From Lysobacterales bacterium (GTDB taxonomy: Bacteria; Pseudomonadota; Gammaproteobacteria; Xanthomonadales; Marinicellaceae), in assembly GCA_020442665.1 (NCBI GenBank), contig JAGRJP010000072.1, forward strand, positions 1 through 42,976: a DNA stretch of 42,976 bases, written 5' to 3'. Positions 16,341-42,976 of this stretch are shown here, piece by piece. The first letter of the stretch is position 1; each line of letters begins with the position of its first letter. The position numbers were made by a program, and so were the translations under genes. The notes below the pieces were generated by a model. The model did no database searches, was not told where the DNA came from, and was given only the letters and a program-made list of their open reading frames with translations.

Positions 16341-16347
16341 TATCTAA

Positions 16348-16382
16348 TCCCACAAAATATCACTTTTTCCCACATAATTGCA
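16348..16382 (-). promoter_or_regulatory. MraZ box (phased TGGGA repeats)
   Basis: On the minus strand TGGGA occurs at 16368-16372 and at 16348-16352, with a degenerate TGATA at 16358-16362 and a weaker TGCAA at 16378-16382. All are exactly 10 bp apart with 5-nt spacers. Known MraZ operators are direct TGGGN repeats with 5-nt spacing, so the match is close. The proximal unit coincides with the only plausible ribosome site of mraZ (GTGGGATTAG), so repressor binding would also cover the start region. Confidence 0.8.
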
Positions 16383-16410
16383 CTTTATCTCTATTTCAAA
16401 TCCAAGTCAA
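16382..16410 (-). promoter_or_regulatory. Predicted main dcw promoter upstream of mraZ
   Basis: On the minus strand TTGACT (16405-16410, 5 of 6) and TAAAGT (16382-16387, 4 of 6) are separated by 17 bp. The start site is predicted near 16375, within the MraZ box. This gives a very short leader of about 35 nt and a simple repression geometry. Confidence 0.75.
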
Positions 16411-16584
16411 CAACTACTTATTAAAAAAATGTAATGAAATCAAAGACTTAATTAATGTTAAACTTTAATAAAAACTCGTAACTTATTGAATAAAAATAAA
16501 ATTATTAGATTTCGTTGTATTTTTACTACCAAATTAACTCCAATCACAGTTGTTTTGGATGGAAAAAACCATGTATTCAGTTAA

Positions 16585-17769
16585 AATGTCGAGGCTGAAA
16601 TTCAGGAAAATAACACTATCGAAACAACTTCAAAAAAACTAACAATTGCCCTCGTTGCCGGAGAGGATTCCGGTGACTTATTAGGTGCTGATTTAATTGA
16701 CTCTTTGAAGTCTAAAAGACCTGATATTGAGTTCATCGGGGTTGGTGGCGAGAAAATGAAACGATCCGGAATGGAGCTCATCTGTACGAATAAGGAGTTT
16801 GCCATCATGGGCATTGCTGAAGTTGTCAAAAAACTTCCCAAATTATTAAAACTCAGAAAACAAATCATCAAAGATATCATTCAAGCCAAGCCGGATATTT
16901 TCATTGGAATTGACGCTCCGGATTTGAATTTTCCGATTGAAAAAAAACTTAAAAAGTCTAACATCAAAATCATTCATTATGTTAGTCCTTCCATATGGGC
17001 GTGGAGACCGAAGCGCGTTGAAAAAATCAATCGAATCACCGATCTGGTCATGACATTGTTTCCTTTTGAGCCGGATTATTATCTGAAATCGGGAGGAAAC
17101 GCTGTTTTTGTTGGTCATCCTCTGGCAAAGAATATCAGTATAGAAATTGATAAACCCAAGTCTAAAAAAACACTCGGATTAAACCCCAACCAGCCGGCAC
17201 TTGCAATTTTACCGGGTTCTCGGAGCAACGAACTCAAAACTCATACAGACATTTTCGTAAAAACCGCTTTAAAAATGCAAAAACAAAATCCGGAATTACA
17301 AATCATTTCTGCAAATACCAATCCGGAAAAAATTGATTTCATTAAAAAAATTGCCAATCAATACAAATTAAACATTCAAGTCCTCAATGATGCTACTGCT
17401 GTCTTAAAAGCCGCTGATTTTGCACTATTGGCATCAGGCACAGTCGCTTTAGAAGCCATGTTATGTAAAACACCGATGGTTGTTGGATATAAAATCTCAC
17501 CAATCACCTACAGCATCGTTAAAACTTTTAAAATGATGTTACTGCCTTATTATTCGCTGCCGAATGTTTTATACGGAGACTTTCTTGTGGATGAAGTTTT
17601 GCAAAAGCAAATGTCGGTAGAGAATTTATTTAATGCTTTATCAAAATTACAAAAAACCAATAAGCACGAAGAACTTATCGAAAATTTCACAATACTGCAT
17701 CAGTCATTATTAACTGATAAAGATGCCGCATCCAGAGTGCTAGAGTTTACCGAACAATGTCTGTTATAG
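16585..17769 (+). CDS. lpxB: Lipid-A-disaccharide synthase LpxB (start codon unclear)
   Basis: LpxB is the peripheral-membrane GT-B enzyme that condenses UDP-2,3-diacylglucosamine with lipid X to form the lipid A disaccharide. Family blocks run through the whole frame: LTIALVAGEDSGDLLGADLI, GVGGEKMKRSGM, DIFIGIDAPDLNFP, HYVSPSIWAWRPKRV, LPGSRSNEL and ALLASGTVALEAML. The frame opens after a stop at 16582-16584 and has no ATG, GTG or TTG before the conserved GEDSGD motif. The first such codon (TTG, 16705) would remove that motif. The best candidate is ATT at 16600 with GAGG 5 nt upstream (389 residues; E. coli has 382). A lost or miscalled base near ATG 16586 or in the 7-A run at 16632-16638 is the main alternative. 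The coordinates cover the full open frame. lpxB is divergent from mraZ, not in an lpxD-fabZ-lpxA operon. Confidence 0.93.
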   Translation, partial: NVEAEIQENNTIETTSKKLTIALVAGEDSGDLLGADLIDSLKSKRPDIEFIGVGGEKMKRSGMELICTNKEFAIMGIAEVVKKLPKLLKLRKQIIKDIIQAKPDIFIGIDAPDLNFPIEKKLKKSNIKIIHYVSPSIWAWRPKRVEKINRITDLVMTLFPFEPDYYLKSGGNAVFVGHPLAKNISIEIDKPKSKKTLGLNPNQPALAILPGSRSNELKTHTDIFVKTALKMQKQNPELQIISANTNPEKIDFIKKIANQYKLNIQVLNDATAVLKAADFALLASGTVALEAMLCKTPMVVGYKISPITYSIVKTFKMMLLPYYSLPNVLYGDFLVDEVLQKQMSVENLFNALSKLQKTNKHEELIENFTILHQSLLTDKDAASRVLEFTEQCLL

Positions 17770-18326
17770 TTGGAGTGGATGAAGCCGGCAGAGGACCTCT
17801 GGCAGGACCGGTAACTGTTGCAGCGGTGATTCTTAAAAAGCCCATACAAGGATTGAATGATTCCAAAAAACTATCGGAAAAAAAGCGTCTGGAATTAGAA
17901 CCAATTATCATTGAGGGCGCATTGGAATACTCTATAATCCATATTGATATCGAAACCATAGAAGACATCAACATTCTGCAAGCCAGCCTTTTGGGAATGC
18001 AAAAAGCGGTGCAACAACTTCAATCTCCTTTTGATAAAATACTGATTGACGGCAATAAATGTCCCAAGTTTTCAAAACCGTCAGAAGCAATTATTGGTGG
18101 TGATGGAATCATTGCTGAAATTTCAGCGGCATCAATTCTGGCAAAAAATGCTCGTGACCGGCTGATGCTAGAAATTCACAATGAATTTCCTCAATATGGT
18201 TTTAATAAACACAAAGGCTACGGAACCAAACTCCATTTAGAAATGCTTCAAAAGCACGGACCCTGCCCTTATCACCGAAAAAGTTTTGCTCCGGTTCGGA
18301 AATTATTACAAACAGAATTGTTTTAG
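17757..18326 (+). CDS. rnhB: Ribonuclease HII
   Basis: RnhB cleaves the RNA strand of RNA-DNA hybrids and starts removal of single misincorporated ribonucleotides. The 189-residue product begins with VIVGVDEAGRGPLAGPVTVAA, which carries the first two catalytic acidic residues. It also has KILIDGNKCP, SAASILAKNARDRLM and the HKGYGTKLHLEMLQKHGPCPYHRKSFAPV block. The ATG overlaps the lpxB coding region by 13 nt. The lpxB-rnhB pairing is common in proteobacteria and supports both calls. Confidence 0.97.
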   Translation: MSVIVGVDEAGRGPLAGPVTVAAVILKKPIQGLNDSKKLSEKKRLELEPIIIEGALEYSIIHIDIETIEDINILQASLLGMQKAVQQLQSPFDKILIDGNKCPKFSKPSEAIIGGDGIIAEISAASILAKNARDRLMLEIHNEFPQYGFNKHKGYGTKLHLEMLQKHGPCPYHRKSFAPVRKLLQTELF

Positions 18327-18431
18327 TGGATTTTTCTGACTTCAGTTCAATAAAAAAGTTTAAATTATATGAGGTGATTCTCTCTCAAATCTTGTATGTA
18401 TTAATAACAGGTACAATTTTGGGAGTTTATC

Positions 18432-20777
18432 ATGAAAAAAATCACACTATTATTCGCATTAACTTATGCGACATTCATTCAAGCATTCACCTATCAGGGG
18501 GAGCTGAGTCACACCGGAACATTGGTTGATGGAACGGCTGATTTTATCTTTGCACTCTACGATGCGGAGACCAATGGTAATCCGGTTGGAATGGATGATA
18601 TTCATTCAGGAGTCACTGTTGAAAACGGTCGTTTTGTGGTCAATCTGGAACAATGGACTGCCTATTATGACGGCACTCCCTTGTGGCTGGAAATTGAAGT
18701 CGATATCGGAGGAACAGGCACTTTTGTCACTTTAAACCCACGGCAAAAGCTGGAACCGTCAGTTTATGCCGAATTTGCTTATGACAGCATGGCAGCCGGC
18801 GGTGGCGACATCACCGGAGTCGTAGCCGGAACCGGTTTAACCGGTGGAGGAACCAGTGGAACGGTGACCTTGTATGTTGATAATACAATCATTCAAAATC
18901 GGATCTCCGGAACTTGTCCTGCCGGACAATCCATAAGAGCTATCAGCCAAAGCGGAACTGTCACTTGTGAAACTGACGATGATTCCGGGGGAGATATTAC
19001 TGGAGTCGCTGCAGGTACAGGACTCAGTGGTGGTGGAGTTACCGGAGATGTGACATTAAATGTGGATACAGCATCTATACAAAACAGGGTTACAGGTACT
19101 TGTCCTGCTGGGCAGTCCATTCGGGTTATCAATCAGAATGGTACAGTTTCTTGTGAAATTGATAATACACTCGATGCCAATTCATTATGGTCAACTAGTG
19201 GGAACGCAAGTGTCGGTTTATCTAGTTTTATAGGTACAACAGACGATTATCCTTTTAGGATTAAAGTCAATAACAAAAGTGTTTCAACTTTTATTGCATT
19301 TAACAATTCTGTTAATATTACTAATGGTGCTGATGCAAATACTATAAATGGCGGATTTGGTACTGGGTCGACTATTTCGGGAGGTGGTTCAGACCAAGAA
19401 TTTTGTGGAAGTTCTGGTACTTTAACTTGTAGAAACTTTATTTTTTCATCTTCATATTCAACCATATCAGGTGGTATAGGAAATATTATTGAAGGTGGAT
19501 CCAATGTTATATCAGGAGGAAGAGATAATTATACTTCTGACTCTTTTAGTGTTGTATCAGGAGGAAATGCCAACTCCGCTACGGGGCTAGCAAGCACTGT
19601 TCCCGGAGGAGAGTCAAATCAAGCCAATGGTGATTACAGCTGGGCAGGAGGCGCATCCGCAATAGTTAGACCGAGTGATACAGGGACATTCGCATGGGAT
19701 GGTGATGGCATCATAAACGATACATTTACTTCTGACTCTAGTAACCAGTTTATAGCAAGAGCACCAGGAGGTTTTTGGTTGGGCACTCAAACAGGTGATA
19801 TAACAGCTAATACAAATGCAGCTGCAATTACTCTTAGTAGTCAACAAGATGAAGATGTCTTAGTGTCCAGAGTTAATGGGCTTCCGAAAGTCATATTCCA
19901 CAGATATGGAGGTGTAAGCATTGGTAATACAGGTAGCACTAACTTTATTCCAGACGGGCTTTATGTACAATCAGGTTCAATGTTAAACGGCAATGTATAT
20001 ATCGGTGGTACTAATAGCTCAACTCTATCAAAATTACATTTAAGTACAATTCCAGGCAAGAATGCATTTAATATTGATACAGATGGAAATGATATATTCC
20101 TGGTAAAAGATACAGGTGAGGTTGGCATTGGTACAACTAATCCAAATTCAACGGTACACATAAGCTCGCCTTCCGATGAAACAGCAATGAGAGTACAAGT
20201 CAATGGCACAACACGATTTAGGGTTGACTCAAATGGAGCCGTTGCAATTGGTTCCAACTTTGCCGGCGCGACACTACCTGCTAGCGGATTAAAAGTTCAG
20301 GGTGACGCAGAAATAGTCGGCAGCCTCTCTAAAGGCGGCGGATCATTCAAAATTGATCATCCTTTAGATCCTGAAAACAAATATCTGTATCACAGTTTTG
20401 TCGAATCACCGGATATGATGAATATCTACAACGGAAATGTCATTACCGATAAAAACGGGGAGGCGTGGGTGGAAATGCCTGAATGGTTTGAAGCCTTGAA
20501 TATGGAATTTCGTTATCAGTTGACAGTGATTGGCAGTTTTGATCGTGCCATGATTGCTGAAGAATTAACCGACAATAGATTCCTGATTCGTACCGAAAGC
20601 GGCAATGTGAAAGTCTCATGGCAAATCACCGGAGTTCGTCATGATGCCTGGGCAGAGAAAAACCGCATTCCTGTTGAAAAGGACAAGGAGGGATTTGAAA
20701 AAGGTCGTTATCTGCATGCCGAAGCCTGGAATGCTCCCGAAGAAAAATCCATGTCCTATAGCGGAGAGGAAGAATGA
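18432..20777 (+). CDS. Secreted repeat-rich surface protein of unknown function
   Basis: The 781 residues open with a Sec signal peptide (cleavage predicted near residue 18, after IQA) and an N-terminal domain resembling one seen in many secreted marine gammaproteobacterial proteins ([20 protein letters not shown]). Two imperfect repeats of about 60 residues follow, starting [17 protein letters not shown] and [17 protein letters not shown]. Next comes a glycine-serine-rich stretch with YadA-head-like GG-x(n)-ISGG turns (about 300-410), then a fibre-like region. The C-terminal domain (from [20 protein letters not shown], about 636) is the most conserved-looking part. Preceded by GGGAG and followed by an ATGA overlap with the next gene. 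Likely a cell-surface or extracellular fibre; no enzymatic motif is visible. The middle (19190-20260) is more AT-rich than either end, consistent with modular exchange. Confidence 0.85.
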
Positions 20778-40192: not shown

Positions 40193-42976
40193 TTATTCTC
40201 TATCTTTAATAAGTTCTTTGATGTTTTCCAATAACTCTGCTTCTTGATACGGTTTACCTAAATAACGATCCACACCCAAGTCCATTGCTCTCTGTCTATG
40301 CTTCTCACCTGTTCTGGAAGTAATCATAATAATTGGAACATTGGCATACTTTTGCTCTTTTTTCATCTCAATTGCCAACTCGTAACCGTCCATTCTTGGC
40401 ATCTCAATATCTAACAGCATCACATCGGGCACGGCTTCTTTCAGTTTATCCAAAGCATCCAAACCATCTTTAGCGGTTACAACATCGTACTCATTTCTTC
40501 GAAGTATCCTTTCTCCAACTTTTCTCATGGTAATTGAGTCGTCAACAATCATGACTAATGGATCTTTCTCAATTTCTTCCTGAATCGCAACTTGAACCGT
40601 ATCATCAAGAGATTCCAGTTTTCTCATGTAAGCTCTTGCCAGAGGAATAATATCCAAAATCAGAACGACATTACCATCTCCAAGCACTGTGGCGCCATAA
40701 ATCCCGGGAACACTGGAAATTTGCGAACCCACAGATTTCACAACGATTTCGCGAGAACCTAAAATTCTATCAACACGAAGTGCCACACCATTTTCACCGG
40801 AACGTATCATCACCAATGGAATCTGATTGTTTTCAATCACAACTTCAGAATCAATGTCCAATAATTTATTCAACTCATGAATTTGATATTCTTCATTTGC
40901 ATACTCGTAAACAAAGTCTTGATTCTTCACTTTTTCTTGATAATCAGCGTAAGACATCCGAATAATTCCTTCCAAACCGGATACAGGAATCGCATAAACT
41001 GTTTCAGCAATTTCTACTAACAATGCAGCAGAAAGTGCCAATGTGTATGGCAATCGGATATTGAATCGCGTTCCCTTACCCGGCTCAGAGTAAATATCCA
41101 AACTTCCACCCAGCAAGTTTATCTGGTTACTGACAACGTCCATACCAACTCCACGTCCTGCGAGTTTGGAAACCTCATCGACTGTTGAAAATCCACTATT
41201 AAGAATTAATCGATCAATATTTGTATCGGAAATCAGAGCATCTTTTTTCAAAATACCTCTTTCTATCGCAATTTCTTTTACTCTCTTACGATTAATTCCC
41301 GCACCATCGTCCGCAACACTGATAACCACCTCGGTCGCTTCACGACGCACGTCAATATTGACAGAACCTTGTTTTGGTTTATCAACAGCTTCACGATCTT
41401 TCTCAATACCATGTGCTAAAGAGTTTCTCAACATGTGTTCCAAAGGTGCAATCACACCTTCCAGAACCGTTTTGTCCATTTCATCATCGGCACCGCGAAC
41501 ATCTAGCTTAACTTGCTTGTTCAATTCGTTTGCGGTTGTTCTTACCAAACGTCTCAAGCGTGGAACAATGGAGTTAAAGGAAACCAATCGAGTTTCCATC
41601 AAACCTTCTTGCAGTTCCGTATTTACCCGAGATTGTTGTGTTAATAAAGAGTCAGAAGTTCTGGCAACATCATCAAGATAACTGTGAATACTTGATAAAT
41701 CCGATACCGACTCCACAAGCGATCTTGACAATTGTTGTAATTGTGAGAATCTGTCCATTTCCAATGGATCAAAATCTTCTTCATCCGATTCCGAATGGAA
41801 GGTCGAAATAATTTGCGCTTCGGTTTCAGCATCCAGTTTTCTTAATTGCTCACGAATCCTGGCAACTGTGTTACCCAACTCTGATAAGTTAACCCGGAAA
41901 GATCCAATTTCCTGCTCAAGACGAGATCGATAGATACTCACCTCACCGGCATAATTCACCAAATTATCAAGGAGTTCAGAGTTTACCTTAATTTGGTTTC
42001 CGGACAGCACGTTGGATTTTTTCTTAGTTGATGTTTCTTCTTTGTCTGTATCGTCTTCTGAATCAACAGATTTTGAGATTGTCGGATCAATGTCCAAATC
42101 TGCAAAGTGAGACTGGTCGAATTTCGACTCCTCAGGAATTGCAGCTTCTTTCCCACCAATCAGTGATTTAACTTTTTCAACGATATGAGAAATATCAGAA
42201 CTTTGTCCATAATCTTTCTCACCTTTCATTTTATTTAGCAGGTCGAAAGACTCTTGAACGGTTGTTAATGCTCTACTATCAATACTCCGTCCTTCTTCAC
42301 TGACTTTCTCCAGCAAGGATTCAAGAACATGGCTCAACTCACCAATATTTTCCAATCCCGCCATTCTTGCACCACCTTTTAATGTGTGCAAATCACGTTG
42401 CAAGGCGAGAATCGAGGTTATATCATCCGGATTTTCTTCGAGTTCAGTAAGTAAATGCTCTGTCCTATCTAATATGTCGTCAGCTTCTTCCTTGAAGATT
42501 TCAAGTAACTCTTCATCGAACTCATCCACATCATCAGATGACTCTTCTTTACTTTCGTAGCTGGATGAAATGACTTCTCTGTATTTTGGCTCTTCAACAG
42601 TCTTAATTTCATCACCAAAATCGACTGAGCTTAAATCAATTACCTCATCGACTTCTGCGATGTCCTCAAACTCTAAAACTTCTACTTCATCTTCCTCGTT
42701 TTCAAGTTCGTCTTGCTCCATCAAGTCTTCCTGAACCCTAATGTCTTTTAATGTAAATTCTCTTAACTCAGGCACTTCTTCTGAATCTTCTTCTGAATCT
42801 TCTTCTAAATCTTCTTCTAAATCTTCTTCTGAATCTTCTTCTGAATCTTCTTCTGAATCTTCTTCTGAATCTTCTTCTGAATCTTCTTCTGAATCTTCTT
42901 CTGAGTCTTCTTCTGAGTCTTCTTCTGAGTCTTCTTCTGAGTCTTCTTCTGAATCTTCTTCTGAGTCTTCTTCTGA
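40193..42976 (-). CDS. ChpA/PilL-type hybrid chemosensory histidine kinase (5' end missing)
   Basis: This is the C-terminal part of a large CheA-like kinase. The frame stays open to the right edge, so the GTG at 42775 is not the true start. From the edge inward: an acidic tandem repeat (EEDS units, 67 residues), an acidic stretch, one HPt domain with phospho-accepting histidine in LHTLKGGARMAG, and a dimerisation helix region. These are followed by the HATPase domain (EHMLRNSLAHGIE, ADDGAGINRKRV, GRGVGMDVV), a CheW domain and a C-terminal receiver (VDDSITMRK ... LLDIEMPRMDGYE ... KPY). ChpA proteins carry several HPt/TPt modules upstream, so more probably lie outside the window. Together with the downstream CheW gene it suggests control of type IV pili. 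Confidence 0.95.
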   Translation of the reverse strand, partial: SEEDSEEDSEEDSEEDSEEDSEEDSEEDSEEDSEEDSEEDSEEDSEEDSEEDLEEDLEEDSEEDSEEVPELREFTLKDIRVQEDLMEQDELENEEDEVEVLEFEDIAEVDEVIDLSSVDFGDEIKTVEEPKYREVISSSYESKEESSDDVDEFDEELLEIFKEEADDILDRTEHLLTELEENPDDITSILALQRDLHTLKGGARMAGLENIGELSHVLESLLEKVSEEGRSIDSRALTTVQESFDLLNKMKGEKDYGQSSDISHIVEKVKSLIGGKEAAIPEESKFDQSHFADLDIDPTISKSVDSEDDTDKEETSTKKKSNVLSGNQIKVNSELLDNLVNYAGEVSIYRSRLEQEIGSFRVNLSELGNTVARIREQLRKLDAETEAQIISTFHSESDEEDFDPLEMDRFSQLQQLSRSLVESVSDLSSIHSYLDDVARTSDSLLTQQSRVNTELQEGLMETRLVSFNSIVPRLRRLVRTTANELNKQVKLDVRGADDEMDKTVLEGVIAPLEHMLRNSLAHGIEKDREAVDKPKQGSVNIDVRREATEVVISVADDGAGINRKRVKEIAIERGILKKDALISDTNIDRLILNSGFSTVDEVSKLAGRGVGMDVVSNQINLLGGSLDIYSEPGKGTRFNIRLPYTLALSAALLVEIAETVYAIPVSGLEGIIRMSYADYQEKVKNQDFVYEYANEEYQIHELNKLLDIDSEVVIENNQIPLVMIRSGENGVALRVDRILGSREIVVKSVGSQISSVPGIYGATVLGDGNVVLILDIIPLARAYMRKLESLDDTVQVAIQEEIEKDPLVMIVDDSITMRKVGERILRRNEYDVVTAKDGLDALDKLKEAVPDVMLLDIEMPRMDGYELAIEMKKEQKYANVPIIMITSRTGEKHRQRAMDLGVDRYLGKPYQEAELLENIKELIKDRE
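42776..42976. repeat. 12-bp tandem repeat encoding (EEDS)n
   Basis: About 17 units of a 12-bp repeat (plus strand consensus tcttcttctgaa) run to the window edge. On the minus strand each unit reads GAA GAA GAT TCA (E-E-D-S). Two units have TTA (L) instead of TCA, and several use GAC for GAT, a silent change. Because the unit is 12 bp, copy-number changes keep the kinase in frame. Confidence 0.95.

Follow-up and report, generated by a model that had tools for sequence, protein, structure and literature searches.

lpxB lacks a canonical start codon in two related Lysobacterales species and may be initiated at AUU

The gene encoding LpxB (lipid-A-disaccharide synthase) has no canonical start codon ahead of its conserved domain in the contig JAGRJP010000072.1 of a Lysobacterales bacterium, the 42,976 nucleotides of which are referred to here as the window. 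We propose, with a probability of roughly 0.55 judged from the sequence, that lpxB is initiated at AUU 16600, both in this genome (G000) and in a sister species (G004), the two being uncultured gammaproteobacteria. Ribosomes would bind a GAGG (16591–16594) and start at AUU 16600 with fMet, which would produce a 389-residue LpxB whose predicted N-terminal peptide is MQENNTIETTSK. The broader statement that lpxB uses a non-canonical start of any kind is likely, and we hold it with clearly greater confidence. The features discussed below are the following (the energies are for an assumed anti-Shine-Dalgarno sequence).

16600–17769, plus strand: lpxB (lipid-A-disaccharide synthase) in its most likely translated form, 389 residues from AUU 16600, based on PF02684 and the table 11 starts
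16600–16602, plus strand: AUU, proposed start codon, the first table 11 start in the frame, identical in the sister species
16591–16594, plus strand: GAGG, proposed Shine-Dalgarno (SD) core, 5 nt before AUU, −5.9 kcal/mol
16618–16620, plus strand: AUC, rival start, with AGGA at 16604–16607, −4.3 kcal/mol
16571–16642, plus strand: ATG frame, probably no coding partner of lpxB, based on its codon score and on 2 of 2 substitutions being nonsynonymous
16632–16638, plus strand: run of seven A (A7), slip site named in the initial annotation, unchanged in the sister species
16341–16599, no strand: intergenic region between the divergent mraZ and lpxB, ancestral on the mraZ side (to ~16524) and lineage-specific on the lpxB side
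17757–18326, plus strand: rnhB (RNase HII, PF01351), which overlaps the end of lpxB and moved with it

The lpxB frame lies on the plus strand, follows an in-frame stop (TAA 16582–16584) and is open from 16585 to 17769. Its product is LpxB: it matches PF02684 with 372.5 bits (cut-off 22.6) over profile positions 1–360 of 374. Between 16585 and the conserved LTIALVAGEDSGD, which begins at 16639, the frame contains no ATG, GTG or TTG. The first of these codons is TTG 16705, about 20 codons inside the conserved domain, which bears out the claim of the initial annotation that lpxB is devoid of a canonical start. Gene finders limited to ATG, GTG and TTG would cut about 35 residues off LpxB, inside the conserved domain. 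With the full start set of NCBI table 11 the open reading frame begins at ATT 16600, and the sister species has an equivalent ATT; a second table 11 start in the 5' end of lpxB, AUC 16618, was absent from the list of the initial annotation. The other elements that it described are correct: ATG 16571 and ATG 16586 share a different frame, closed by TAA 16640–16642, the A7 run occupies 16632–16638, and GAGG is found 5 nt before AUU 16600.

The closest relative among the genomes examined is a MAG from another species, Lysobacterales bacterium HKST-UBA248 (JAGRJO010000009.1), and the comparison of the start region within the sub-lineage rests on this one close relative; the other genomes named below by G numbers belong to the same genus. 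The LpxB proteins of the two species are 94% identical. Bases 16529–16613, including ATGTCGAGGCTGAAATT, are the same in both, and so is the A7 run. Over 4.4 kb the two sequences differ by 200 substitutions (about 4.5% throughout) and by a single indel, at 18329, outside lpxB. The contigs were therefore assembled as different sequences, and their base counts agree. It had been anticipated that relatives with an extra base, placing ATG 16571 or ATG 16586 in the lpxB frame, would expose an assembly error or a strain-specific indel. The nearest relative shows no such base, and both explanations are rejected since a separate species has identical bases. The 85 nt that are unchanged between 16529 and 16613 are only the ninth longest invariant run in the 4.4 kb, so this stretch is by itself no evidence of constraint, and that idea was dropped.

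An error common to both assemblies is unlikely. Both sequences are MAGs, and the same false base loss might have resulted from one workflow or from shared reads, in which case the true gene would start at an in-frame ATG; the fact that codon-like sequence extends to 16588, just after ATG 16586, would fit this. However, a difference of about 4.5% throughout with a single indel points to good base counts in separately distinct sequences, and the proposed site of the loss holds no homopolymer. We therefore regard this explanation as improbable.

The comparison of the two species also indicates that lpxB is a working gene. For positions 16600–17766, dN is 0.026 and dS is 0.26 (dN/dS of about 0.1), which resembles the values of the neighbours rnhB and mraW, and the frame is full-length and free of indels in both species. 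Purifying selection acts on it in both, and only a single copy was found in each genome. The genome of the window has one LpxB match only, and it contains lpxA with fabZ and lpxD beside it. lpxK is present in the sister species, and was not found in the genome of the window, a MAG that is 94% complete. In a plasmid collection, only distant lpxB matches were found. Considering the purifying selection, the intact frame in both species and the presence of lipid A genes, lpxB is very probably translated in both lineages. The loss of the start codon could also mean that lpxB is decaying and no longer translated to a useful level, and two genomes of the same genus (G006 and G010, with no assembly break nearby) have no LpxB match. 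This is nevertheless very improbable, given a dN/dS like that of the neighbours, a full-length frame in both species, and the presence of lpxA and, in the sister species, of lpxK. Since the canonical start has been lost and the gene is kept by selection, lpxB is most likely read from AUU.

The duplex predicted for the GAGG upstream of AUU 16600 has an energy of −5.9 kcal/mol with the assumed anti-SD, which places it close to the top 5% of random positions. The infC gene of the same genome (C324:27276–27500, minus strand) provides an internal control. It begins TAGAGGATAA-ATT-AAC-ATC and appears to start at AUU (or at AUC, two codons after AUU) and not at ATG, GTG or TTG; the upstream sequence reads GAGG-ATAA-AUU, and this GAGG, 4 nt before AUU, gives −5.8 kcal/mol with the same assumed anti-SD. 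The anti-SD is assumed for all SD energies because no 16S 3' end could be identified in the assembly, where a search with GGATCACCTCCTT returned only a match unlike 16S. AUU 16600, one of the three explanations put forward in the initial annotation, is thus the best supported: its SD equals that of the organism's own infC, its bases are the same in a second species, and the gene is under purifying selection. Some observations argue against it. The codon-like stretch from 16588 up to AUU is left unexplained by initiation at AUU, and AUC 16618, which also follows an SD-like motif (AGGA), would yield an N-terminus whose length is nearer to that of relatives.

AUC 16618 is the main rival of AUU 16600, and we consider it unlikely, if less so than the other alternatives. 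LpxB would then begin with fMet-ETTSKKLTIALVAGED..., where relatives have ATG, and AGGA 16604–16607 would serve as SD. This start would leave 9 residues before IALVAGED, a number close to that of same-genus relatives (7); AUC belongs to the table 11 starts and serves infC of Streptomyces (PMC5472188). AGGA is located 10 nt upstream and gives −4.3 kcal/mol with the assumed anti-SD, a weaker match than that of AUU. A weak −10-like box at 16582–16587 would set the transcript start at about 16594, after GAGG, but the promoter match is no better than in shuffled sequence (2 found, 1.7 expected), and the sigma-70-like match at 16560–16587 was set aside as being at chance level. Moreover, a start at AUC leaves the codon-like stretch 16588–16617 unexplained. 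GTC 16588 is the earliest plausible codon at the onset of the codon signal, and a GTC start is proven for sigR of Streptomyces (PMC5472188); however, no SD match lies upstream (0 kcal/mol with the assumed anti-SD) and AUU with its good SD comes 12 nt further on, so that a start at GTC is scarcely credible. Reinitiation at AUU 16645, just past TAA 16640, was rejected: this codon has no SD, and starting there would cut into the first conserved strand. AUU, and not AUC, would be the codon used; the yield may be low, and IF3 may discriminate against this start as it does for infC.

The codon signal around the start was assessed with a score trained on the genes of the window, on which real coding windows reach 6.2 bits in the median and −0.2 bits at the 5th percentile. 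The lpxB frame scores +7.7 bits over 16585–16638, which is typical of real genes; the ATG frame scores −5.8 bits over 16586–16639, which is lower than the 5th percentile just given, and the third frame scores −21 bits over 16585–16638. Stop-free shuffled bases match the score of the lpxB frame in 0.3% of trials. The codon signal upstream of the conserved domain is only moderate evidence, because the same level is reached by 5% of open intergenic windows. The codon-like sequence in the lpxB frame reaches 5' of AUU to 16588, just after ATG 16586. Two substitutions separate the two species over 16585–16638. One of them is synonymous in the lpxB frame; on the contrary, both are nonsynonymous in the ATG frame (T to K and L to P), which argues against a translated ATG frame and therefore against slippage at A7, even if two substitutions are few.

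The initial annotation had also considered such slippage, for the ATG frame from 16571. As assessed here, translation would start at ATG 16571 or ATG 16586, and a −1 shift, or an A added by the polymerase, at A7 16632–16638 would join this frame to lpxB. Indeed, A_AAA_AAC precedes TAA 16640 in the ATG frame, the sister species has the same A7 run and the same two ATGs, and an SD-like GGATGG is found ahead of ATG 16571 (ATG 16586 has no SD match with the assumed anti-SD). In addition to its non-coding score and to the two nonsynonymous substitutions, however, the region folds no better than shuffled sequences (z of −1.05), and runs of at least seven A are common, with 18 on the plus strand of the window, 3 of them within lpxB. 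Slippage is therefore disfavoured, and we regard it as quite improbable. The third explanation, a one-base loss after ATG 16586, does not hold as an error of one assembly or as a strain-specific indel, both species carrying the same bases, and could only have happened in the ancestor that they share. With the codon-like stretch starting directly after ATG 16586, such an ancestral one-base loss, followed by rescue from AUU, is a plausible history. It leaves the present-day need for a start unchanged in both species.

The gene order in relatives suggests how the canonical start was lost. lpxB starts with ATG in all of the more distant relatives with a readable start (27/27). Among same-genus genomes, the gene order is readable in five (G002, G003, G005, G008 and G009); in these, lpxB is preceded by lpxD-fabZ-lpxA and then by a gene of some 354 codons that looks thioredoxin-like by eye. 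The start codon of lpxB is ATG there, and lpxB often abuts or overlaps the end of the gene before it. The order lpxB-rnhB is common to relatives. In the window and in the sister species, lpxB-rnhB is outside the lpxA operon and divergent to mraZ, and the similarity (blastn) to the DNA upstream of mraZ in same-genus genomes stops at or before about 16524. Since lpxB-rnhB moved beside mraZ and the similarity ends at about 16524, the 5' end of lpxB is new and lineage-specific. lpxB-rnhB left the lpxA operon for the mraZ side, and lpxB acquired a new 5' region; the loss of the canonical start probably came after the move.

G006 and G010 have both lpxA (loci L081 and L083) and lpxK, but lpxB is missing downstream of lpxA and neither genome gave an LpxB match. 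The listed completeness of G010 is 99%; in these two genomes lpxB is in an assembly gap, diverged or lost. The fabZ protein of G006 begins with MTEENNTIET (L081:509–538), compared to QENNTIET in the proposed N-terminus of LpxB (window 16603–16626). The idea that lpxB took its 5' end from fabZ was rejected: there is no DNA match between G006 fabZ and the window, despite the likeness of the peptides.

Elsewhere in the window, a 781-codon open reading frame (18432–20777) follows rnhB; it has no Pfam match and is not covered by the alignments to the sister contig. Positions 42775–42976 align to many places of the sister contig that are shifted by 12 bp, pointing to a tandem repeat with a period of 12. 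This repeat is located at or just before the start of a minus-strand open reading frame (40193–42775).

To our knowledge, AUU starts have been seen for only few bacterial genes. An AUU start usually keeps the protein scarce. A literature search on lpxB and non-canonical start codons returned nothing relevant. LpxB is a core envelope enzyme, and such a start in two species would offer a natural test of how a cell copes with, or exploits, weak initiation once a gene has been relocated. That lipid A synthesis is throttled at the translation of LpxB, through AUU, IF3 and the state of the ribosome, instead of or beside LpxC turnover, is doubtful.

The proposed AUU start of lpxB adds a case to a small known class, to which infC and pcnB belong, and involves no new mechanism. 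In a survey, the switch from AUG to AUU was found once among 61,358 ancestral AUG starts (PMC5622118). AUU starts have been reported for infC (PMC5472188) and for cvfC1 of S. aureus (PMC13009471). infC of E. coli and relatives is, like lpxB, an essential gene with an SD core before AUU. However, it encodes IF3 and so regulates itself, whereas lpxB has no such loop; the AUU of infC is well documented in other bacteria, and that of lpxB is described here in two species only. pcnB of E. coli codes, like lpxB, for an ordinary enzyme and starts at AUU; according to the account of Binns & Masters 2002 given in PMC9764084, this start is experimentally proven, has a poor ribosome-binding site and keeps the level low, whereas lpxB has a fair SD and its start is deduced from the DNA. 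The start of sigR in Streptomyces, like that of lpxB, is non-canonical and misplaced by standard gene finders. Unlike lpxB, whose start is read from the sequence, sigR uses GTC, is known to be repressed by IF3, and its start has been proven by stop-codon scanning (PMC5472188). Lastly, a frameshifted lambda cI was rescued in E. coli by a non-natural start codon (PMC6397469). It resembles lpxB only in its possible history, a one-base loss near ATG and a non-standard codon in the old frame; the cI case is a laboratory mutation of a reporter circuit, whereas lpxB has been kept over evolutionary time.
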